20,843 bases of DNA from a virus. The stretch lies in the IMG/VR virus record IMGVR_UViG_3300020457_000127, positions 1-20,843 of that record. One strand, written 5' to 3'. The notes under the pieces were generated by a model. The model was not told the DNA's origin and made no database searches. It was given only the letters and a program-made list of their open reading frames with translations. A program made the translations under genes and the position numbers. This document shows positions 5,891 to 20,843 of the stretch, in pieces (the stretch's first letter is position 1; each line of letters begins with the position of its first letter).

Positions 5891-6089
5891 TCCATACGCT
5901 GCCTTTGCAGCAGTAATATATTTCTTTGGCGTGTTCTTGTATTACGTACACGTCAAGACTATATTCTATTTTTTAGAGAAGCCGCATGAGATGCACTTCG
6001 GAAGAGTTATCTTCAGTAGTTTACTGTGGATATTCAACGTAGTAATGCTTATGTGGGTAGAGTTTACAGGAGAAGATGATGACAGATAA
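5877..6089 (+). CDS. Small two-helix membrane protein (70 aa)
   Basis: Lies between the primase-helicase and the polymerase, overlapping both by about 14 bases. It has two membrane-spanning segments (about residues 8-33 and 42-61), an acidic C-terminus and a short charged loop with H and E between them. It could anchor replication at the membrane or be a small inner-membrane effector. No family is recognised, so these roles are guesses. The conserved overlaps support translation. Confidence 0.6.
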   Translation: MQYIDPYAAFAAVIYFFGVFLYYVHVKTIFYFLEKPHEMHFGRVIFSSLLWIFNVVMLMWVEFTGEDDDR

Positions 6090-6981
6090 GATCGTTGCAA
6101 TGGACATCGAGACAGAATCATTGACTCCTGAAAAGATTTGGTGTATCTGTGCAGAAGATGTGCAGACAGGTGAGAAGGAACACTTCGTTCACCTAACAAC
6201 AATACAAGAAGAGAAGGAGAGGTTCATTGAGTACTGTAGTAGATACGATAGGTTTATATTTCACAATGGAATCTGTTTTGATGTTCCTATTATTAATCGC
6301 CTTATAAAGAAAGACTTGATACCCTTGGAGTCAGTCATCGACACACTGATTGTCAGTAGACTGGTTGACTTTGACCTCAAGCATGGTCATGGCCTCAAGG
6401 CTTGGGGTATCAGGCTAGGTAACTTCAAGATGGACTTCTCAGACTTCTCTATGTTGTCAGATGAGATGATTAAGTATTGTCATCAGGACGTTACAGTTAC
6501 ATTAAGAGTGTACGATAAGTTCAAGAAAGTAATACATGATACTGATTGGCAGTGGGCCATACAGTGTGAACATGACATACAAATACTGTGTCAGACCATG
6601 ACAGACAATGGCTTCTACTTCAACAAGGCTAAGGCTGAAGAGTTACTTGATGAGATAGAACAACGTAAGGCACACCTTGAGGATGCTTTCCAAGAGGACT
6701 TCCCACCCAAGCTAGAGGAAGTCAATCGTATAAAGTACAGAAAGAAAGCTGACGGTACACTGTACAGTAACGTGACCAACGCACAAAAGAAACACGCTAA
6801 GACAGTAGTAGACTGGTCAAAGCAAGAGCCTGAGCTAGTATGCTACGACTTCATAGACTTCAACCCTGCCTCACCCAAGATGCGGATAGAAAGATTGTGG
6901 GATGCAGGATGGAAACCCTTTGAGAAAACGAAAGGACATATAGACTATGAAAGACAGTCAGCTAGAACTTTTCGTACATAA
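6079..6981 (+). CDS. DNA polymerase, family A, N-terminal part (3'-5' exonuclease), split gene
   Basis: This fragment carries the proofreading domain of a T7 gp5-like polymerase. Exo I is D9-x-E11 (AMDIETES). Exo II is FHNGICFDVP with D68. Exo III is Y133-x3-D137 (YCHQDV). The match runs to about FNPASPKMRIERLWDAGWKP, where T7 gp5 would continue into the polymerase domain. The frame then ends in a non-homologous tail overlapping an endonuclease ORF. The ATG at 6079 is preferred to that at 6076 because AGGAG (6068-6072) is six bases from it. The polymerase catalytic half is encoded separately at 7377-8393. The halves would have to associate as two polypeptides. Confidence 0.88.
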   Translation: MTDKIVAMDIETESLTPEKIWCICAEDVQTGEKEHFVHLTTIQEEKERFIEYCSRYDRFIFHNGICFDVPIINRLIKKDLIPLESVIDTLIVSRLVDFDLKHGHGLKAWGIRLGNFKMDFSDFSMLSDEMIKYCHQDVTVTLRVYDKFKKVIHDTDWQWAIQCEHDIQILCQTMTDNGFYFNKAKAEELLDEIEQRKAHLEDAFQEDFPPKLEEVNRIKYRKKADGTLYSNVTNAQKKHAKTVVDWSKQEPELVCYDFIDFNPASPKMRIERLWDAGWKPFEKTKGHIDYERQSARTFRT

Positions 6982-7384
6982 AGATGAGGTTGATAATGTG
7001 TATGGTTGTAGTACAAAAGTGTGCTCTCAATGTCGTAAAGAAAAACCTGCTACCACTGAGTACTTTACAAGTAATGTAAATAACAAAGGAGTGCATGATA
7101 GATTAAAACATATATGTAAATCTTGTGTGTCTTTAAACAGCAGAATAGTACGTGAATTAAGAAAGACCGCACCACCTGTTCCTGAAAATTGTGATGTTTG
7201 TGGTGGTAGTCTATCAAAACTACCTAGCAGAGAGATTCATTTAGATCATTGTAGAAAAACTGAAACATTTAGAGGATGGTTGTGTAAAAATTGTAATGTG
7301 GGTATAGGTATGTTAGGTGATGATTCTGAAGGTGTAGAGAAAGCATTTGAATACTTAAAAAAACATGAGGAAGAAAATGGATGA
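6947..7384 (+). CDS. Endonuclease VII/HNH-like mobile endonuclease splitting the polymerase
   Basis: A 145-aa protein with paired zinc-type cysteines: CSQCRKEKP near the N-terminus, CKSC in the middle, CDVCGG and CKNC in the C-terminal part. The stretch HLDHCRKTETFRGWLCKNCNVGIGMLGDD is shown by its key residues H, D, H and the following C-x2-C. This is the pattern of the recombination endonuclease VII (His-Me finger) family found in many free-standing phage homing endonucleases. It overlaps the polymerase N-terminal part by 35 bases and the C-terminal part slightly. Its own GC (about 35%) is lower than in the flanks (about 50%), a sign of separate origin. AAAGGA at 6931-6936 could serve as its ribosome site. 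Confidence 0.82.
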   Translation: MKDSQLELFVHKDEVDNVYGCSTKVCSQCRKEKPATTEYFTSNVNNKGVHDRLKHICKSCVSLNSRIVRELRKTAPPVPENCDVCGGSLSKLPSREIHLDHCRKTETFRGWLCKNCNVGIGMLGDDSEGVEKAFEYLKKHEEENG

Positions 7385-8393
7385 ACGAGGACAGAAGTTT
7401 GCTAAGTTCGGATGGACTTTATCTGAGGCAAACCTTAACACACTACCTGAGACAGCACCTGCAGGAGGCAAACGTCTAGCTGAGTGGTTGACACTTGAAG
7501 GTAGGCGATCCTCACTAGTGGAGTGGCTAGGGCATTGTGGTGACGATTCACGTATACACGGTAGCTTTACACACGTTGGTGCATGGACAGGTAGGATGGC
7601 ACACAGAAATCCTAACCAAGCTAACATCCCTGCACAGTTTCACGGTGATGCCGTTACTGCAGTGGAGAAGGTTAAGGATAGATACGATGGGCAACTACGT
7701 GAGCTATGGTGTGTACCCAAAGGCTGTTACTTGGTAGGTACAGACGCTGAGGGTATTCAGTTACGTGTACTCGCACACCTGATGAAGTCAGAGGAATACG
7801 TACACGCTATCGTGTCAGGCAAGAAGGAAGATGAGACAGACATACACAACCTCAACCGTAAGGCTCTAGGTATGTCACACGTTACTAGAGATATGGCTAA
7901 GACTTTTATCTATGCGTTCCTACTAGGTGCAGGTAATGCCAAGGTAGCACAGATACTCAAGGTCAACCAGAAAGAAGCAAAGCAAGCAGTTGAAAACTTT
8001 ATGCAATCAATTCAAGGACTTGCTGAGTTAAAGAAAAAGATTATACCACACATAGCTAAACGTGGGTGGTTCAGAGGTCTTGATGGACGTAAGGTTGTAG
8101 TACCTTCAGAGCACAAGACACTAGCAGGTATGCTTCAGAATGGTGAGTCAACCATAATGAAACATTCAGCACTCGATTGGGTACACAAAGCTAAGAGACA
8201 GTTCCTTGAGTTCAAGCTTGTGACGTGGCCTCACGATGAGTGGCAAACAGAAGTGCGTGGGCAGATGAAAGATGCTGAACTACTAGGTAAGATACAAAGG
8301 CAATCTATTGTTGACACTGGTGAAAAGTTTGGTATGATCTGTCCACTCGCAGGGTCAACTGACATAGGATATAATTGGAAGGATACTCATTAG
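7377..8393 (+). CDS. DNA polymerase, family A, C-terminal part (polymerase domain), split gene
   Basis: This part carries the polymerase active site. Motif A is VGTDAEGIQLR, with D123. Motif B (O helix) is RDMAKTFIYAFLLGAG, with K175 and Y179, the tyrosine being in the place of T7 Y526. Motif C is HDE, with D287. These catalytic residues are intact, so the split need not inactivate the enzyme. The first residues, ERGQKFAKFGW, continue naturally where the N-terminal fragment ends. The start may be ATG 7365 or 7377. AGGAAG (7368-7373) lies before 7377. The stop overlaps a GTG-started small gene (TAGTG). Confidence 0.88.
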   Translation: MDERGQKFAKFGWTLSEANLNTLPETAPAGGKRLAEWLTLEGRRSSLVEWLGHCGDDSRIHGSFTHVGAWTGRMAHRNPNQANIPAQFHGDAVTAVEKVKDRYDGQLRELWCVPKGCYLVGTDAEGIQLRVLAHLMKSEEYVHAIVSGKKEDETDIHNLNRKALGMSHVTRDMAKTFIYAFLLGAGNAKVAQILKVNQKEAKQAVENFMQSIQGLAELKKKIIPHIAKRGWFRGLDGRKVVVPSEHKTLAGMLQNGESTIMKHSALDWVHKAKRQFLEFKLVTWPHDEWQTEVRGQMKDAELLGKIQRQSIVDTGEKFGMICPLAGSTDIGYNWKDTH

Positions 8394-9051: not shown

Positions 9052-9297
9052 ATGAAATACGCAGTAATGATTATGTTTGATACTGATGAGGATTACAACT
9101 ACGTGCCTGAAGAGTGGCCTTGTAATACTACAGAAGGATACAAACCAAAGCTGTTCGATACTTTCGAAGCAGCAGAAAAAGAACGTAGTAAGTGGAACAC
9201 AGGAATCATCGTTGACTACAGTGACGATATACTTAGACCAATGACACAGAAGGAACGTCAACGTGCCAAAGAACGAGAACTTGCAAATACTGGTTGA
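9052..9297 (+). CDS. Small protein of unknown function (81 aa)
   Basis: Starts with ATG at 9052 after GAGG at 9042-9045, directly behind the SSB terminator. The N-terminus (MKYAVMIMFDTDEDYNYV) looks like a beta strand plus an acidic loop. The C-terminus is a basic helix with KERQRAKERE. From memory such short proteins are common in T7-like marine phages, without known function. It overlaps the exonuclease start by 35 bases. Confidence 0.6.
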   Translation: MKYAVMIMFDTDEDYNYVPEEWPCNTTEGYKPKLFDTFEAAEKERSKWNTGIIVDYSDDILRPMTQKERQRAKERELANTG

Positions 9298-13536: not shown

Positions 13537-13563
13537 AAAAAGGAGGTCTACTTATGACCTCTT
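13535..13563. terminator. Bidirectional terminator between the two arms
   Basis: AGGAGGTC (13541-13548) pairs with GACCTCTT (13556-13563), an 8-bp stem with one G-T pair and a 7-base loop. On the minus strand it is followed by a run of seven U (A at 13535-13541). On the plus strand it is followed by a T-rich tail (TCTTCTTTCTTTTC). It sits exactly where rightward early and leftward late genes converge and overlaps the last codons of the leftward arm. Confidence 0.8.
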
Positions 13564-15368: not shown

Positions 15369-15611
15369 CTACCACTTCTTACATGACCAGTATCGTGCAG
15401 TCATCTTATCTTTAGCTGTATCACATTTATGCCTTGCACGAAAAGATTTTCTACGTTTAGGGTTATTCTTTTTGATTGTCATGTTGGCATCACCAAACCT
15501 GATGATCTTTTCTTTACCACCCTGACAAGCCTTGACAACAAACTTCTTGCCGCCAGAGACCTGACGCTTAGGGCTGTTGCACTTCATCTTTGATTTGTCT
15601 ATCTTAGCCAC
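15369..15611 (-). CDS. Small basic protein with IRFGDANMTIKK motif (80 aa)
   Basis: Shows KSKMKCNSP, KKFVVKACQGGKEKIIRFGD, MTIKKNNPKRRKSFRARHKCD and ARYWSCKKW, the order of a family I recall from large DNA viruses and phages (DUF5754-like), of unknown function. About a third of residues are K or R and the four cysteines could bind metal. Probably nucleic-acid associated. The start is GTG at 15611, overlapping the previous gene, with GGTAGG just upstream. Confidence 0.75.
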   Translation of the reverse strand: MAKIDKSKMKCNSPKRQVSGGKKFVVKACQGGKEKIIRFGDANMTIKKNNPKRRKSFRARHKCDTAKDKMTARYWSCKKW

Positions 15612-15975
15612 GATACCTACCGAATGTTATAGTTTTTAAGAAGCCTCTCCATATCTCTATAGGTGACGGTAGCATCCACCCTAGTACAGCTAGTAGTATC
15701 ATCCACATAGGTATGTCTTGGTTCAGTACCTTGACGTTACCTGCATCACCATCAATGCTGAACGCACCCTCTGACTGATTGACGTTTACGTTCTCACCTG
15801 ATATGTCTCTACTCTGGTCAATAGCTGACTGATTGTTTTCTTTACCTATCTGTGTGTTGGCGTTGACGGATGTACCATCGCCTTTGCCTCCACCACCAAA
15901 GCTACTCATCAGTGCCAAAGGTGACAGACAGCCACCCAAAAATAATACGAGTGTTAGTGCTAGTGCTAGTCTCAT
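15604..15975 (-). CDS. Candidate unimolecular spanin (lipoprotein with C-terminal membrane helix, 123 aa)
   Basis: N-terminal signal of a lipoprotein: MRLALALTLVLF, then the lipobox LGGC, with C16 as the lipid-carrying cysteine. The central part (about 20-87) is rich in G, N, S and Q, without strong helices. A membrane segment follows (about 88-108, IPMWMILLAVLGWML) and a basic end. A lipid anchor at one end and a membrane helix at the other is the layout of unimolecular spanins such as T1 gp11 (131 aa), which fuse the outer and inner membranes in the last step of lysis. The ATG at 15975 overlaps the previous stop (TGATG). Confidence 0.7.
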   Translation of the reverse strand: MRLALALTLVLFLGGCLSPLALMSSFGGGGKGDGTSVNANTQIGKENNQSAIDQSRDISGENVNVNQSEGAFSIDGDAGNVKVLNQDIPMWMILLAVLGWMLPSPIEIWRGFLKTITFGRYRG

Positions 15976-16907
15976 CAATCTAGTTTCCCTAAGTTAATTT
16001 CCCAAGAAGTTCCTTGACCTTCTGGAACACCTAAAGCTGCAGCCCATATACGTAACCTTTGAAGGTAGGGTCTTGGGTCTCCGTTCTCGTCAGTTAAAAC
16101 TTCAGTCGATAGTTCTCTGTACTTATCCATATTTCCAGCTTCTTTATGTACTAAAGCTTGCTGAAGTTTTGTACCTAATGGTCCAGTGTTAAAATCGTAA
16201 ACATCTCTAACTATTAACTCACCTTGTTCATTTAAAAATACGTTACCATCAGCAGTTTGACCAATTAAGGTAGCCATTCTAAACTCAGGTGATGTTACTG
16301 TTCCTGTAGCCATAGTAGTAATGTCTTTCATCAACACACTCTTTTCCTCAAAACCCCAATCTTCATAAGTAAACTTACTACGTCCTTCATCTAAAACTTT
16401 TTTAGCTGCGCTCTTTATAACGGATACGTCTGCTGGTGTAAAGTCATCAACAGTTAAATTTATTTTTCCATTGTTGTTCATAAACTCAGCAAACTTAGAA
16501 GCATTTACAGGTAAAACAGGGCTAAAAAAATCTAGTACAGGAATTGCTACAGTTGATAATACCTCAGGACTAGGTATAAGAGAAGAAGGATTTAAAACAG
16601 GTAAGTTATTATCTGTCTTTTTCTCCTGAGGTTTTTGATCCACATTAAAAGTAGGTATATTTGGCTCAGGAATCCTGCTTACCATAGAAGACACACTTTC
16701 TTTTATATCTGTAGACTCAGGTACTAATTCATAAGCCGCTTCTGCAGCATCAGCTACAACCTCTGCACCACTAGCCATAGCTTGAGATGCACTATTAACA
16801 ACAGTGTCAAAGAAAGATGGACCCTCTTGAACAGCTTTAGTTCCACTTTCTACTGCAGCATTTACAGCAGTCTCTACTAGTTTACCTGTATTCCAACTAC
16901 TTGCCAC
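15975..16907 (-). CDS. Virion-associated protein with MASSWNTGKLVE start (310 aa)
   Basis: Begins at GTG 16907 (MASSWNTGKLVE, residues 1-12), identical in protein to the start of the neighbouring lysozyme-like gene. A helical alanine-rich region (about 12-65) follows. Then come a proline- and asparagine-rich linker (about 78-120) and a mixed C-terminal domain (about 140-310, EEKSVLMKDITTM, FLNEQGELIVRDVYDFN, RIWAAALGVPEGQGTSW). No family is recognised. No cysteine seen in 310 residues. Position between internal virion proteins and lysis genes, with the shared start, suggests it is packaged or ejected together with the lysozyme. It overlaps the lysozyme end by 11 bases. Confidence 0.65.
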   Translation of the reverse strand: MASSWNTGKLVETAVNAAVESGTKAVQEGPSFFDTVVNSASQAMASGAEVVADAAEAAYELVPESTDIKESVSSMVSRIPEPNIPTFNVDQKPQEKKTDNNLPVLNPSSLIPSPEVLSTVAIPVLDFFSPVLPVNASKFAEFMNNNGKINLTVDDFTPADVSVIKSAAKKVLDEGRSKFTYEDWGFEEKSVLMKDITTMATGTVTSPEFRMATLIGQTADGNVFLNEQGELIVRDVYDFNTGPLGTKLQQALVHKEAGNMDKYRELSTEVLTDENGDPRPYLQRLRIWAAALGVPEGQGTSWEINLGKLD

Positions 16908-17424
16908 TTCTAACCTCTGCTATTAACTTATCAAGGGTTGGGTTATCTACATACTTAAAACCTTCCCAAACTTTTCTAAGGTTTTGCCTTTGTTGAGCAC
17001 TTGTCTTACCTCTACCTATGGCATCTCTAGCTAAAAACAAAAACATTTTGTCTTGTGTCGCTTTATCAAATACAGTATCATCAGATAAACCCATCTGACT
17101 TGCTACATTTCTAAGAGTAGTTCCTACTATTTGGTATTTACCCATAGGTGTAGAGGTTTGACCCTTTTTGTAGGCTTCAGTACTCTCTGGTAGCCTAGTC
17201 TTTACGTATTGACCATACTGATTAGACGGTTGAGAGAAGTTATAGAGTTGCCCTAGTGTCATAGTTGACACCTTGGTTCCTCTAAACGGTGTGTTACCTG
17301 TCTCAGAGTTAGCAAACAGTGTGTCATAACCTTGAGCTTCTACTTTTTCTAGGGTCTTTTGAGTTGTAGAGTTAGGTTGTAAGCTTGCTTCAACTAGTTT
17401 TCCTGTGTTCCAACTACTAGCCAT
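16897..17424 (-). CDS. Lysozyme-like peptidoglycan hydrolase with MASSWNTGKLVE start (175 aa)
   Basis: After the shared start (1-12) and a short linker, a lysozyme-superfamily domain is suggested by GYDTLFANSE (E41 as candidate catalytic acid), KVSTMTLGQLYNFS (51-64), PMGKYQIVGTTLRNV (93-107, like the G-(K/R)-YQ...TL stretch of phage muramidases) and QDKMFLFLARDAIGRGK (124-140). It could open the cell wall during ejection or serve as the endolysin. The ATG at 17424 follows the previous stop by one base, so the longer frame to 17508, starting with a signal-like stretch, is less likely. No cysteine is seen. Confidence 0.72.
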   Translation of the reverse strand: MASSWNTGKLVEASLQPNSTTQKTLEKVEAQGYDTLFANSETGNTPFRGTKVSTMTLGQLYNFSQPSNQYGQYVKTRLPESTEAYKKGQTSTPMGKYQIVGTTLRNVASQMGLSDDTVFDKATQDKMFLFLARDAIGRGKTSAQQRQNLRKVWEGFKYVDNPTLDKLIAEVRSGK

Positions 17425-17425
17425 G

Positions 17426-19432
17426 TCACTGTTTCTCATACAACATCCCGTCGTCGGGATCAATGAAAAAAGAGCCGCTAGGAAGATTATTAAAAGCAGC
17501 CTCCGCATCTTTGTTACTCATTCCTTCTGTAAATGTAAATGGATTTTCTTGTGTGAACTTTCTACTCGTTGCTGGTCCACTTTCTAATTCTTCACTTGGG
17601 CCTATTTGAGTAGTTCCCTTTTCTTGGGCTATCAGTTTCATACCCTCAAATTTAGTAGGATCACCACCAAGTTTTCTCCAAGCCTCTGAGTACTTGCTTG
17701 ACATTTGGTTTATATCAGTTATCTCTTTGTAGTGATTACTATATAACATAGTATCAAAACCTTTACCACGAAGCTCAGTTTTTTCAGAATTTTCTAACTT
17801 GGAAAAATCATCCTTAATCATTCTAAAAATATTACCACCGTAGTGTTCGTCAGCAAAAGCTTGAACAGTACCATCTCTAAGAGGTTTTGGACCTGTTGTT
17901 TTAAAACCTATAGTTCCTTTTTCTTTTATTTCAAACACGCTGGTTTGTGTAACACCAGACATAGCAGTAAAGAAACGATTTGACTGTTCCTGTAGAGCGT
18001 TTAAAAGTTGTCTCTTTGCTACCTCTACACCATCAGGATTAAAAGGTTTTACTGCTTTAAGTAATTCAAAAGTTTTATTACTGAATAGTCCTTTCTTAGG
18101 ATCAAATAACATATTTAAATCTAAAGGTAAATCTGTTGTAGCTGCAATTAAAGCCGATCTGTCTATACCTTTTAGTAATAAGTTTCTAGCGTTCTCATCT
18201 GATTGCATAGCTGAAGCTTCTAGAGCTAGTATTTCAAATGTAATTGAGTAGTCTAGGTTACTTATCCTAGCTTTATCAGACATCTCCTCAACTTTTGTAA
18301 TAGAGTTACTTGTATGTAATTCAGTAGTAGTGTTAAGACTTGACTCTGAATCTTCAATATTTAAATCGTTAGGTAAATTTTCAAACACTTCTAGAGCTTC
18401 ATAACCTATGTCATCACCTGACACACCCTTCATTATAGCTACAACCTCAGGGTAACTCTTGTTCAACACAACTTCAGAGAGTTTGTCTAGGTTTCCTAGG
18501 ATAGCCCTCTGCAGTGTAAGGTCTACATCAGTAGCTTCTAGCTGCTTGACAATAGCTAAGTCAACTTTGTTTAGTGTGTCACCCTTGAGTTTATTTAATA
18601 TTTCTGTATCGTAGTTTGTTACAAACTGTACAAGCTCATCAAGCCGATCTATTCGTTTTTGAATCCCTTGGAACTCCTGATCTGACACACCTCTAGGTTG
18701 TATAAATTTACCTTTGAGTATTTGTATCTGACCTTTGAGTTGTTGTAAACTCTCAGGGCTTACATTACCACCAGCTATCTCTATTGATAATGCCTTTAGT
18801 CCAAGTTCCCTTGTGTTTTCCAAGGTGTTTATCATCATCGTTTCATTCTGAGTAAACTCAGCAGCAGACATTGTGTTAGCGTTGGATATAACTAATGATG
18901 CAGTTTCTTGTTGGGCTATTAAACTTATAGCTTTCTCAAGCACTGCTGAATCTGTAGGATTCTCCACACCATCAGCTAGTAGTTTGTCTCTGGCTAGGAA
19001 TACGTAAGCTGGATTTTCAGATAGCTTCTGATTCATCATGTTGAGTGATTCTTGGTAAGGATCAACATTGAGGTAGTCTACGTCTACACCAGTTGTAACC
19101 TTGACTAACCTAGATACATTCTCATCTATCTTTAGACCTTGTTTGGAGTACTTAGTTATAAGACCATTTAGACCAGTTCTTACGTTAAGATCACCCGATC
19201 CTTTAAGACCGTCAAGCTCTTTAGAAAACTCTGCATATAGCTGTCTATTTATAGAACCTTCAGAAGGTTGTTTACTTGTCGATGTCATACCGTCTAAGAC
19301 ACCAAACAAACCTTTACTTAGTGCGTTGATACCTGCAGCAGCAGCACCCATTTCCGTAGCACTAGGGTACGTAACACCCTGAGCATAGCTTGCTCCTGCA
19401 TCACCAATGTCTACAGAGTAAGAATCAGCCAT
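17426..19432 (-). CDS. Internal virion protein (668 aa)
   Basis: A large, mainly helical protein placed between another large virion protein and the lysozyme, where T7-like phages encode ejected internal virion proteins. N-terminus MADSYSVDIGDAGASYAQGV is small and polar, then alanine-rich (residues about 28-45). The middle is a long series of helices rich in E, K, L and N. The C-terminal tail, PSGSFFIDPDDGMLYEK, resembles the end motif (SGxxFIDPDG) I recall from such phage proteins. No cysteine seen in 668 residues. AAGGA lies six bases before the ATG at 19432. No specific family name can be assigned safely. Confidence 0.7.
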   Translation of the reverse strand: MADSYSVDIGDAGASYAQGVTYPSATEMGAAAAGINALSKGLFGVLDGMTSTSKQPSEGSINRQLYAEFSKELDGLKGSGDLNVRTGLNGLITKYSKQGLKIDENVSRLVKVTTGVDVDYLNVDPYQESLNMMNQKLSENPAYVFLARDKLLADGVENPTDSAVLEKAISLIAQQETASLVISNANTMSAAEFTQNETMMINTLENTRELGLKALSIEIAGGNVSPESLQQLKGQIQILKGKFIQPRGVSDQEFQGIQKRIDRLDELVQFVTNYDTEILNKLKGDTLNKVDLAIVKQLEATDVDLTLQRAILGNLDKLSEVVLNKSYPEVVAIMKGVSGDDIGYEALEVFENLPNDLNIEDSESSLNTTTELHTSNSITKVEEMSDKARISNLDYSITFEILALEASAMQSDENARNLLLKGIDRSALIAATTDLPLDLNMLFDPKKGLFSNKTFELLKAVKPFNPDGVEVAKRQLLNALQEQSNRFFTAMSGVTQTSVFEIKEKGTIGFKTTGPKPLRDGTVQAFADEHYGGNIFRMIKDDFSKLENSEKTELRGKGFDTMLYSNHYKEITDINQMSSKYSEAWRKLGGDPTKFEGMKLIAQEKGTTQIGPSEELESGPATSRKFTQENPFTFTEGMSNKDAEAAFNNLPSGSFFIDPDDGMLYEKQ

Positions 19433-19441
19433 AATATTTCC

Positions 19442-20843
19442 TTAATACATTTGTTGAGATATAAGACCAGCTTCAAAGCCTAGGTCTAACCTTTGAGCAT
19501 TTCTTAAAATGTCTGGTATTGCACCTGCATTTACAAGGCTATCCTGAAGTGATACCTTTAGCTCGTTTGACAAGTTAGATGCCCATAGTTCATCTGATAT
19601 TTCTTGCCATAGTTTTGTTCCTCTTACCATATCACGTTCATCACCCTTTGTCAAGAGTTCAATAGCAAGAGTAGCCTTTCCATTAAGTCTATTTCGTAAA
19701 TCTTTATATACTTTATTTTTCTTATAAATTATTTCTTTGACATCATAGTAGTTTTGTACTGGTGCAGGAATAGCACCAAACAATACTGCCGCAGCAGCCT
19801 CTGGTGGTAGACCGCTTACAGCTAGTTTTCTAGTTCTACTTCTGTAGTTTCCTGATTCTATCAGTTCTCTTATCTTAACAGCTTTATCTACAGTTGACAA
19901 GTTACGTAAAAGTTGCGTTAAGTCTTCTCTCACTGATTCGGTTCTACCACCGTACATAGCTCTGATAGCATTGGATGCCGCACTCTTCATGTCACCAAAT
20001 ATCTCACCAGAAGGACCGAACAGTGTTGTAATTAGTGACTCTTCCATGAGTTTTCTGTGGGTGTCTTTTATCTGACCTAAAGGTGCAGCACGTTCAGCAT
20101 ACGCAGTTTCAGTACCTATACCCCAACCCAAAAGCTGATCAAATAGACCGTATTTTATTTGATTAAATCTTTCTAGTGCAGCAGGGTCATCTGGGCTATA
20201 ACCCATCTTTTCTATTATGTAACCTGTAGACTTACCTAGACCAATACCTGTCAAACCCCACATCGGCCCCATAACTAGGAACATTCTACGCCTTTCACCT
20301 GCTGTAAAGTTCTTGCCTATAGCAATGTTTTCCATAGCTCGTAAACTAAATGTTAGCCATTGTGTAGGTACTCTCATTGGACCTGACTGAGCAAAGCTTC
20401 TGGAAGCTGTAGTCATTCTAAAGGTTAGGTCTTGTTCTCTGTTGGTAATCCAAGTCTTACCTGCAGGAGATAAAGGACTAATATCAGGGCGTTTTACTCT
20501 GTGTTCTAGAAAGGCTGTAATTATACCTGTCATACGTGAGGCTCTCTCACCCTCTCTAAAGAACAATGTTGACTTATCTAAGAATGTACCTACAGACTGT
20601 TGAGCTTTTCCTACTAGGGTACTAGCCGCACCAAACTTTTGTGGAGCCTGTAGTTCTATAACTTGATTGTCAATGATATTACGTCCACTCTGATCAATGT
20701 ACTTAACAAGAGTATCTATCTCAGCTTCTTCCATACCTGTAGTTTTAGCTAGACGTTTTATAGCTAAACTTCTAGTAGCACTATCAGGTAAGTTGGCTAT
20801 CATCATCATAGGTACTGACAACCCTAGAGCTTTCATCCCAGCC
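19442..20843 (-). CDS. Large internal virion protein, C-terminal part (partial, 5' end outside window)
   Basis: The frame is open to the right edge (codons for A and G precede the ATG at 20836), so the true start lies outside; at least 466 residues are seen. Stretches such as RMTTASRSFAQSGPMRVP, TQWLTFSLRAMENIA and RRMFLVMGPMWGLTGIGLG are of the kind I recall from the very large (over 1000 aa) ejected proteins of marine podoviruses, equal in role to T7 gp16. A hydrophobic segment near the middle (about 188-206 of the visible part) could contact a membrane during DNA ejection. No cysteine is seen. The stop lies 10 bases before the next gene. Confidence 0.7.
   Translation of the reverse strand, partial: AGMKALGLSVPMMMIANLPDSATRSLAIKRLAKTTGMEEAEIDTLVKYIDQSGRNIIDNQVIELQAPQKFGAASTLVGKAQQSVGTFLDKSTLFFREGERASRMTGIITAFLEHRVKRPDISPLSPAGKTWITNREQDLTFRMTTASRSFAQSGPMRVPTQWLTFSLRAMENIAIGKNFTAGERRRMFLVMGPMWGLTGIGLGKSTGYIIEKMGYSPDDPAALERFNQIKYGLFDQLLGWGIGTETAYAERAAPLGQIKDTHRKLMEESLITTLFGPSGEIFGDMKSAASNAIRAMYGGRTESVREDLTQLLRNLSTVDKAVKIRELIESGNYRSRTRKLAVSGLPPEAAAAVLFGAIPAPVQNYYDVKEIIYKKNKVYKDLRNRLNGKATLAIELLTKGDERDMVRGTKLWQEISDELWASNLSNELKVSLQDSLVNAGAIPDILRNAQRLDLGFEAGLISQQMY

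Follow-up and report, generated by a model that had tools for sequence, protein, structure and literature searches.

Why should two neighbouring late proteins of a phage, which have little else in common, begin with the same 12 residues? This question was raised by the IMG/VR virus record IMGVR_UViG_3300020457_000127, of which positions 1 to 20,843 were analysed (the window, 20,843 nucleotides). On its minus strand, a lysozyme and a protein of 310 amino acids (aa) both start with MASSWNTGKLVE, referred to here as the tag, and both open reading frames (ORFs) were recovered at the positions assigned to them by the initial annotation. From the sequence comparisons presented below we consider it probable that this shared start is a docking peptide, by which the hydrolase and the 310-aa protein would be attached to an ejection protein, the candidate being the 668-aa protein encoded immediately upstream.

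The 36 nucleotides encoding the two tags differ at six sites (1, 6, 18, 24, 33 and 36). The first is the exchange between ATG and GTG at the start codon and the other five are silent third positions. Little else is common to the two proteins: BLASTP aligned residues 1-15 (12/15 identical, E=2e-5) and nothing further of note. After the start codon, 5 of the 11 codons differ, the mean expected for independent codon draws from the neighbouring gene being 5.9 (P(<=5)=0.38). As a consequence, the two copies in the window have diverged about as far as unrelated synonymous sequence. No description of this tag was found in the open-licence literature, as judged from titles and abstract openings and with searches that were not all aimed at the tag.

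Paired tags in related phages

The window is a member of the cobavirus group (SIO1, ICBM1, CRP-4), and its nearest named phages are cobaviruses: SIO1 with its kin, ICBM1, ICBM3 and CRP-4, whose lysozymes are 62-66% identical to that of the window. Related loci (designated by L numbers) were gathered with the 310-aa protein, the lysozyme, the spanin, the CRP-5 transglycosylase and an alignment of internal virion protein D, using two scans of the collection from which the best 80 of 106 and the best 80 of 151 were taken. An anchor was present in 155 loci, 146 of which had an ORF after the 668-aa-type gene, and 84 were distinct by their first 40 residues. These 84 include three ORF miscalls (L069, L218 and L220), and six of them were left out of the shuffled-sequence tag test. 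The paired analyses (Mantel tests, rank profile and class agreement) were carried out on 28 genomes dereplicated from 50 pairs, the window included.

The shared start was present in the relatives. In SIO1 the two tags are MTSAWNKG and MASSWNLA, and in CRP-4 they are MDFSNQATEYKP and MDFSSQAKEFKP. Lysozyme and 310-aa-type tags belonged to a single class within every one of the 28 genomes (SSWN in 18, DFSxQA in 7, KDY in 2 and NFW in 1), while the classes vary between phages. The lysozyme tag matched its partner's start better than it matched shuffled sequence in all 28 (p<=0.04; p=0.001 in 23 of them), and the mean similarity of tags was 0.62 within a genome's own pair and 0.27 across genomes (permutation p=5e-5). 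Distances between lysozyme tags and between 310 tags were closely correlated (Mantel r=0.895), also after controlling for the bodies of the lysozyme, the 310-aa-type and the 668-aa-type proteins (r=0.879), with the caveat that shared ancestry inflates Mantel p-values. Since the correlation hardly changes with this control, the two tags are inherited and altered together, for the most part independently of the proteins carrying them.

The initial annotation had taken the silent differences as the trace of selection on the peptide and not of recent copying. Selection on the peptide is well supported by the persistence of the pair in the relatives, by its concerted change between phages and by the silent differences found in many genomes. 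The denial of recent copying proved right in part. Of the codons that can be compared, paired tags differ silently at 5 of 10 in the window, where such differences are near saturation, and at 7 of 9 in L016, but only at 1 of 10 in L223 and 1 of 7 in L028. Recent copying as the whole explanation is thus rejected for the window but not for L223 and L028, and the variation between genomes indicates that DNA copying sometimes contributes.

The C-terminal mini-domain of the 668-aa protein

The 668-aa protein was modelled as a helical protein (predicted template modelling score 0.49) ending in a mini-domain of predicted strand, helix and hairpin, whose block values of the predicted local distance difference test reach 82-89 over residues 631-668, after a low-confidence linker at 612-623. 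A profile of this mini-domain detected 74 of the 84 distinct proteins at the same gene position, from here on the gp15 position; the exceptions were the three ORF miscalls, L233 and six long proteins. In L233 (7355-9799) the gp15-position protein ends in two tandem mini-domains.

When the 310 tag was compared with the gp15-position protein, its partial correlation was 0.466 (p=2e-4) with the C-terminus and 0.033 (not significant) with the body, and that of the 310 body with the same C-terminus was -0.008. Along the cassette, and leaving the lysozyme tag apart, the rank correlation of the 310 tag was highest (0.49) for the final 22 residues of the protein in the gp15 position, with values of 0.12-0.30 for segments of the lysozyme domain and of 0.22 for residues 14-40 of the 310-aa-type protein itself. 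Trees gave the same picture. For 72 genomes (the 74 with a closed 600-760-aa protein minus 2 of unassigned class) the 10 tag classes required 9 changes, the minimum, on the tree of the last 46 residues, whereas five other trees, built from the body, from three further segments of 46 residues and from internal virion protein D, required 27-31 and shuffled labels about 48, the classes having been set by patterns of our own after viewing the tags beside the C-termini. Among these controls, the C-terminus of internal virion protein D followed the tags poorly (31 changes; rank r 0.17). At the level of sequence, therefore, the subtype of the mini-domain goes with the tag and not with the remainder of the 668-aa-type protein. 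The common partner that the initial annotation had offered as one possibility is well supported in this sense, as the tags track one mini-domain of a neighbouring ejection-type protein.

Two columns of the mini-domain separate several of the tag classes. At position 658, Asp is found in 19/19 SSWN genomes and Asn in 10/10 DFSxQA and KDY genomes; this position does not rank within the top 12 columns for mutual information. Position 665 bears Tyr in 19/19 SSWN, Leu in 10/10 DFSxQA and KDY and Arg in 7/7 NFW genomes, although its residues are not unique, Tyr and Arg each recurring in another class. Charge could be matched at position 658, with Asn in the tag facing Asp in the domain and the reverse.

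The 668-aa protein is a putative equivalent of gp15 by its position, its size and the helical content of its model. Its length falls within the 431-982 aa given for gp15-type ejection proteins (PMC8954989), and in the annotated ICBM1 genome the corresponding protein follows internal virion protein D.

Tags on other enzymes, and fused proteins

Tags are also found on hydrolases outside the lysozyme/310 pairs. The lytic transglycosylase gp37 of CRP-5, which has no 310 neighbour, starts with MANFWDNDEVV and repeats ANFWDKDEVI from residue 26. A doubled tag as in this protein was found in L159, L160 and L161, which match three other sets of endolysin families (those of L160 and L161 being, presumably, GH24-like and GH108-like). 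The NFW tag is therefore carried by a lytic transglycosylase, three other endolysin-type proteins and one lysozyme/310 pair. The gp15-position proteins beside it have, by eye, at least three backbones, and those beside the hydrolases have a single C-terminal subtype. When SSWNTGKLV and NFWDNDEVV were aligned by eye, their spacing was equal. By eye, two copies of the tag also open a protein of 1670 aa in L163, which has an endolysin domain at its C-terminus. In all, a second tag copy was detected in 18 of 50 proteins outside the lysozyme/310 pairs (p<=0.006). A second KDY seen by eye in gp40 of P12053L was discarded (p=0.42).

A tblastn search of the phage collection for the doubled tag matched CRP-5 alone. 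Nine genomes or loci were also scanned for more tag-like stretches, and the top six hits per tag included no further strong match at the beginning of a gene. An early ORF of 81 aa in the window (9052-9297, plus strand) has an internal SKWNTGIIVDY, similar to the L223 tag SKWNTGTLL, which was taken as chance. In two other phages, L054 and L047, large lysozyme-bearing proteins start with doubled motifs recognised by eye (IDLSAFDED IDLSAFDEE; FDPFARD ... YDPFSF), which are perhaps the same kind of tag.

Thirteen gp15-position proteins exceed 790 residues. L233, with its two mini-domains, is one of them, and the other 12 have none by the profile. The extra part of these 12 gave a hydrolase-type match in seven, only a family of unknown function in three and no match in two. 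The matches were to an endolysin in L227 and L218, to the family of the window's lysozyme in L008 and L052, and to families of the CRP-5 transglycosylase in L228, L229 and L231. In eight of the 12 (L052, L211, L214, L215, L216, L218, L227 and L239) no tagged protein comes next, and three of these eight have a recognisable hydrolase. The long proteins of L214, L215 and L239 share a C-terminal domain, PHROG_24780 (function unknown), where others bear the hydrolase; this domain may be an unrecognised hydrolase. Finally, in L050 (7314-9266) the lysozyme and the C-terminal domain of the 310 family are joined in one 650-aa protein (E 3e-21).

A hydrophobic extension upstream of the lysozyme tag

The lysozyme frame is open upstream of MASSW up to an ATG at 17508, which adds the hydrophobic stretch MRRLLLIIFLAALFSLIPTTGC before the tag. 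Such an extension directly precedes the tag in 63 of 75 genomes, and its hydrophobicity exceeded that of synonymous recoding in 45 of the 63 (p<0.05; window p=0.024). In 30 dereplicated genomes, the +1 frame at the end of the gp15-position gene had a hydrophobicity above 1.8 in 30/30 (18/30 with p<0.05), against 0-4/30 in four upstream control windows, the signal being confined to the last 36 codons. Nine of the ten VSxGG genomes are among the 12 without the extension, and the tag is still present in them. The 310-aa-type proteins have no such extension either, because at most 14 open codons precede their tag in 28/28 genomes.

In these 63 genomes the ATG that opens the tag is preceded by a strong Shine-Dalgarno duplex, the mean being -5.4 and that of background ATGs -1.3; the count of 63/63 tag starts at ATG is biased, as the start was defined as the first in-frame ATG near the stop of the neighbouring gene. 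These sequence features suggest that two products probably arise from the lysozyme gene: a membrane-anchored enzyme for lysis and a tagged one for the virion. Cobavirus endolysins were said to be free of membrane anchors (Bischoff et al., PMC6775973), and the extension calls this view into question.

Proposed mechanism and alternative explanations

According to the docking reading, the tag would bind the C-terminal mini-domain (residues 624-668) of the adjoining 668-aa protein encoded upstream. The latter would take the place of T7 gp15 in the ejection complex, which is carried inside the head and delivered to the periplasm, so that the peptidoglycan hydrolase and the 310-aa partner would hang from that complex. 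Other lineages would reach the same end with a hydrolase fused to the C-terminus of the 668-aa-type protein. The internal ATG would give the tagged short lysozyme and the upstream start the membrane-anchored long form for lysis. From the patterns described we infer the physical binding, the location in the virion and the use of both products.

Besides the inflated Mantel p-values and the way in which the tag classes were set, several observations weigh against this reading. The linear correlation of the adjacent 310 residues 14-40 is near that of the mini-domain (0.515 vs 0.575), and the lysozyme domain itself correlates slightly with the mini-domain (partial r 0.22, p=0.017). The model of the 668-aa protein had no significant Foldseek match, chains of T7 gp15 appearing at E 1.9 and 2.2, and a second fold search gave nothing significant, T7 gp15 not being among the matches listed. 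Four of the 12 long proteins (L008, L228, L229 and L231) keep a 310-family protein (E<=5e-44) with the usual mini-domain undetected, and the comparison of their C-termini with the mini-domain gave a weak profile likeness (hhalign E=0.06). L238 carries three tags, and 32 of the 50 other proteins, some of them truncated, had no second copy at p<=0.006. As a result there is no fixed number of tags, and a rule of two per genome fails. The Shine-Dalgarno signal of the window's own lysozyme tag start is weak (-2.7). Lastly, cassette exchange could create part of the association, because the mini-domain adjoins the lysozyme tag on the DNA.

This last point leads to an explanation in which nothing binds: the mini-domain and the genes of the slot would recombine as one cassette, which makes the classes agree, and DNA copying would keep the tags alike. 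In addition to the adjacency, the hydrophobic frame overlaps the mini-domain, the L223 tags are near-identical in DNA, and parsimony in the 28 pairs barely separates the mini-domain from the lysozyme domain (4 vs 5 changes of the 310 tag). However, the 310 tag, which lies about 0.5 kb away, tracks the mini-domain by rank above the intervening lysozyme segments and the adjacent 310 residues, the silent differences in the window are near saturation, and a neutral peptide would not stay constant on unrelated enzymes. We regard this explanation as unlikely. It is distinctly unlikely that the tags have each other as partner, or some third protein of the virion (scaffold, portal or internal virion protein B), and that the mini-domain follows them for another reason. 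The comparison covered the lysozyme, the 310-aa-type and gp15-position proteins and internal virion protein D, and the fusion in L050 means that the two tagged proteins may form one complex. Nevertheless, unpaired hydrolases bear the tag without any 310-aa-type protein, and internal virion protein D tracks the tags as poorly as described above.

The initial annotation had also thought of a protease, and the last three residues of the window's tags, L-V-E, agree with the L/I-x-E rule of T4. A head-targeting signal like the capsid targeting sequence (CTS) of T4, in which the scaffold or core would be the partner of the tag and a prohead protease would cut the tag off, was accordingly the first idea, and like that signal the tag is N-terminal, of some 10-12 residues and common to unrelated proteins (PMC9026906). 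This idea failed on the conservation of the motif, since L/I-x-E occurs within the first 16 residues of both proteins in 2 of the 28 genomes and of neither in 20. Peptidase_S78 was not found in 6/6 records with a working control (the search for Peptidase_S77 was uninformative, its control being silent). Nor does it predict an association with the mini-domain, and we hold it quite improbable. Highly improbable is a peptide that serves only the membrane-anchored lysis enzyme, for instance as a juxtamembrane element for release or inhibition. The hydrophobic extension does directly precede the tag in most genomes, but the 310-aa-type proteins and nine VSxGG genomes have the tag without it, and the tag starts at an in-frame ATG with a ribosome-binding signal.

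If docking is accepted, the evolution of tag and mini-domain as matched classes implies that new hydrolases could be plugged in by gaining a tag. It is quite possible, though we advance it more tentatively than docking itself, that a modular plug-and-socket code operates on ejection enzymes, with at least 10 co-varying classes, tandem plugs (NFW, FxxYG and VSxGG) or sockets (L233), and one gene giving a plugged entry enzyme and an anchored lysis enzyme from a start hidden in the frame of its neighbour. The looser doubled N-terminal motifs of L163, L054 and L047 hint that the code reaches beyond the cobaviruses. In the sources cited, the wall-cutting enzymes that short-tailed phages carry on their ejected machinery have so far been described as covalent domains (T7 gp16, PhiM1 and K1E; PMC8954989, PMC11440229). 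Exchangeable classes of peptide and receptor, if true, would explain the swapping of unrelated hydrolases in one gene position and would provide a pair of peptide and domain that lends itself to direct testing, the positions of its specificity being named. The tag could then be used for loading chosen proteins onto the phage ejection complex, and one gene would serve both entry and exit.

Organization of the locus

The late genes of the window run on the minus strand in the order internal virion protein D, 668-aa protein, lysozyme, 310-aa protein and spanin-like protein (Table 1). ICBM1 has the same order (internal virion protein D, a 677-aa protein, endolysin, a 257-aa protein and spanin), and CRP-4 has a different small protein where the spanin would be. 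The lysozyme is homologous to SIO1 gp24, ICBM1 gp36 and CRP-4 gp37, and scanning of its long form (16897-17508) gave a match to the PHROG_90 endolysin (E 9e-9). A Pfam search of the late proteins, lysozyme included, gave no informative match, and Rfam gave none within the window.

Table 1. Features of the tag locus in the window
Feature	Positions	Strand	Remarks
Internal virion protein D, C-terminal part	19442..20842	-	PHROG_38076, PHROG_12003; used as anchor and control
668-aa protein, putative ejection protein	17426..19432	-	gp15 position after internal virion protein D; position and size, helical model
C-terminal mini-domain, residues 624-668, proposed tag receptor	17429..17563	-	Subtype follows tag class
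Asp658 codon of mini-domain	17459..17461	-	Picked by eye, then counted
Tyr665 codon of mini-domain	17438..17440	-	Aligned column of highest mutual information with tag class
In-frame hydrophobic extension of lysozyme, MRRLLLIIFLAALFSLIPTTGC...	17425..17508	-	Overlaps the 668-aa gene at its 3' end; predicted signal anchor of the long form
Lysozyme short form, 175 aa	16897..17424	-	PHROG_90 endolysin; PHROG_14527 (unknown function)
Lysozyme tag MASSWNTGKLVE, codons 1-12 of short form	17389..17424	-	Same class as 310 tag in 28/28 genomes
310-aa tag-bearing partner of lysozyme	15975..16907	-	
310-aa protein tag (GTG)ASSWNTGKLVE, codons 1-12	16872..16907	-	Shine-Dalgarno duplex -6.5 upstream
Spanin-like protein, downstream	15604..15978	-	Anchor for gathering loci

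The model of the 310-aa protein is of low confidence over residues 1-137 and folded over most of 138-310, and Foldseek found no significant match for it. By eye, the C-terminal part of the 310 family varies between the relatives L033, L023 and L209 behind one tag class. A stretch resembling the end of the 310-aa protein was found in a 1893-aa protein of a pelagiphage (L070; HTVC115P gp40, 15654-21335).

Outside the tag locus, a terminator-like stem on both strands (13541-13563) lies where the two arms of the genome meet, and a bidirectional terminator is annotated at that place in ICBM1. By eye, the DNA polymerase (6076-8393, plus strand) seems to be split over two frames (6076-6981 and 7365-8393) that flank an HNH-endonuclease-like ORF (6947-7384); the polymerases of ICBM2 and CRP-5 are also annotated in two pieces.

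Comparison with known systems

The internal proteins of T4 enter the head by a 10-residue N-terminal sequence that is cut after L/I-x-E (PMC9026906). The tag resembles this CTS, known from IPI-IPIII, in being a short modular N-terminal peptide on unrelated proteins with a proposed role in virion targeting (PMC9026906, PMC3012670). It differs in having no conserved L/I-x-E cleavage site, in having the C-terminus of an ejection-type protein as its apparent partner, and in its matched classes, its tandem copies and its presence on peptidoglycan hydrolases. We therefore class the tag as a variant of the N-terminal targeting peptides and not as a T4 CTS.

The cobavirus endolysins SIO1 gp24 and ICBM1 gp36 correspond to the window lysozyme in gene and position. 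In the available part of their description no shared start is mentioned (PMC6775973), whereas we propose here both a tag of the virion type and an extension that resembles an anchor.

Signal-arrest-release (SAR) and other signal-anchored endolysins are lysis enzymes that bear an N-terminal hydrophobic segment, as the long form would. In the window, however, this segment is encoded over the 3' end of another gene and is followed by an internal start that would give the tagged form.

In T7, an extended gp16-N segment binds the C-terminal region of gp15 and so keeps the peptidoglycan hydrolase attached to the gp15 tunnel (PMC8954989). The docking proposed here would likewise attach a hydrolase at the C-terminal region of the gp15-position protein, but here the hydrolase is a small protein of its own that begins with a peptide of 12 residues, and T7 gp15 matched the 668-aa protein neither in sequence nor, significantly, in fold. 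A lysozyme-like domain of the PhiM1 ejectosome was assigned to the ejection protein OEP (PMC11440229), and in PhiM1 and K1E the hydrolase is covalently within the gp15-like protein (PMC11440229, PMC8954989). The fused hydrolases of L008, L052, L218, L227, L228, L229 and L231 are similar to this arrangement, while the window and most of the relatives examined have a separate tagged enzyme. Taken by analogy, these fusions, the lysozyme-like domain of PhiM1 OEP and the binding of gp16-N to the gp15 C-terminus in T7 suggest that the tag stands in for the covalent link between hydrolase and ejection protein.

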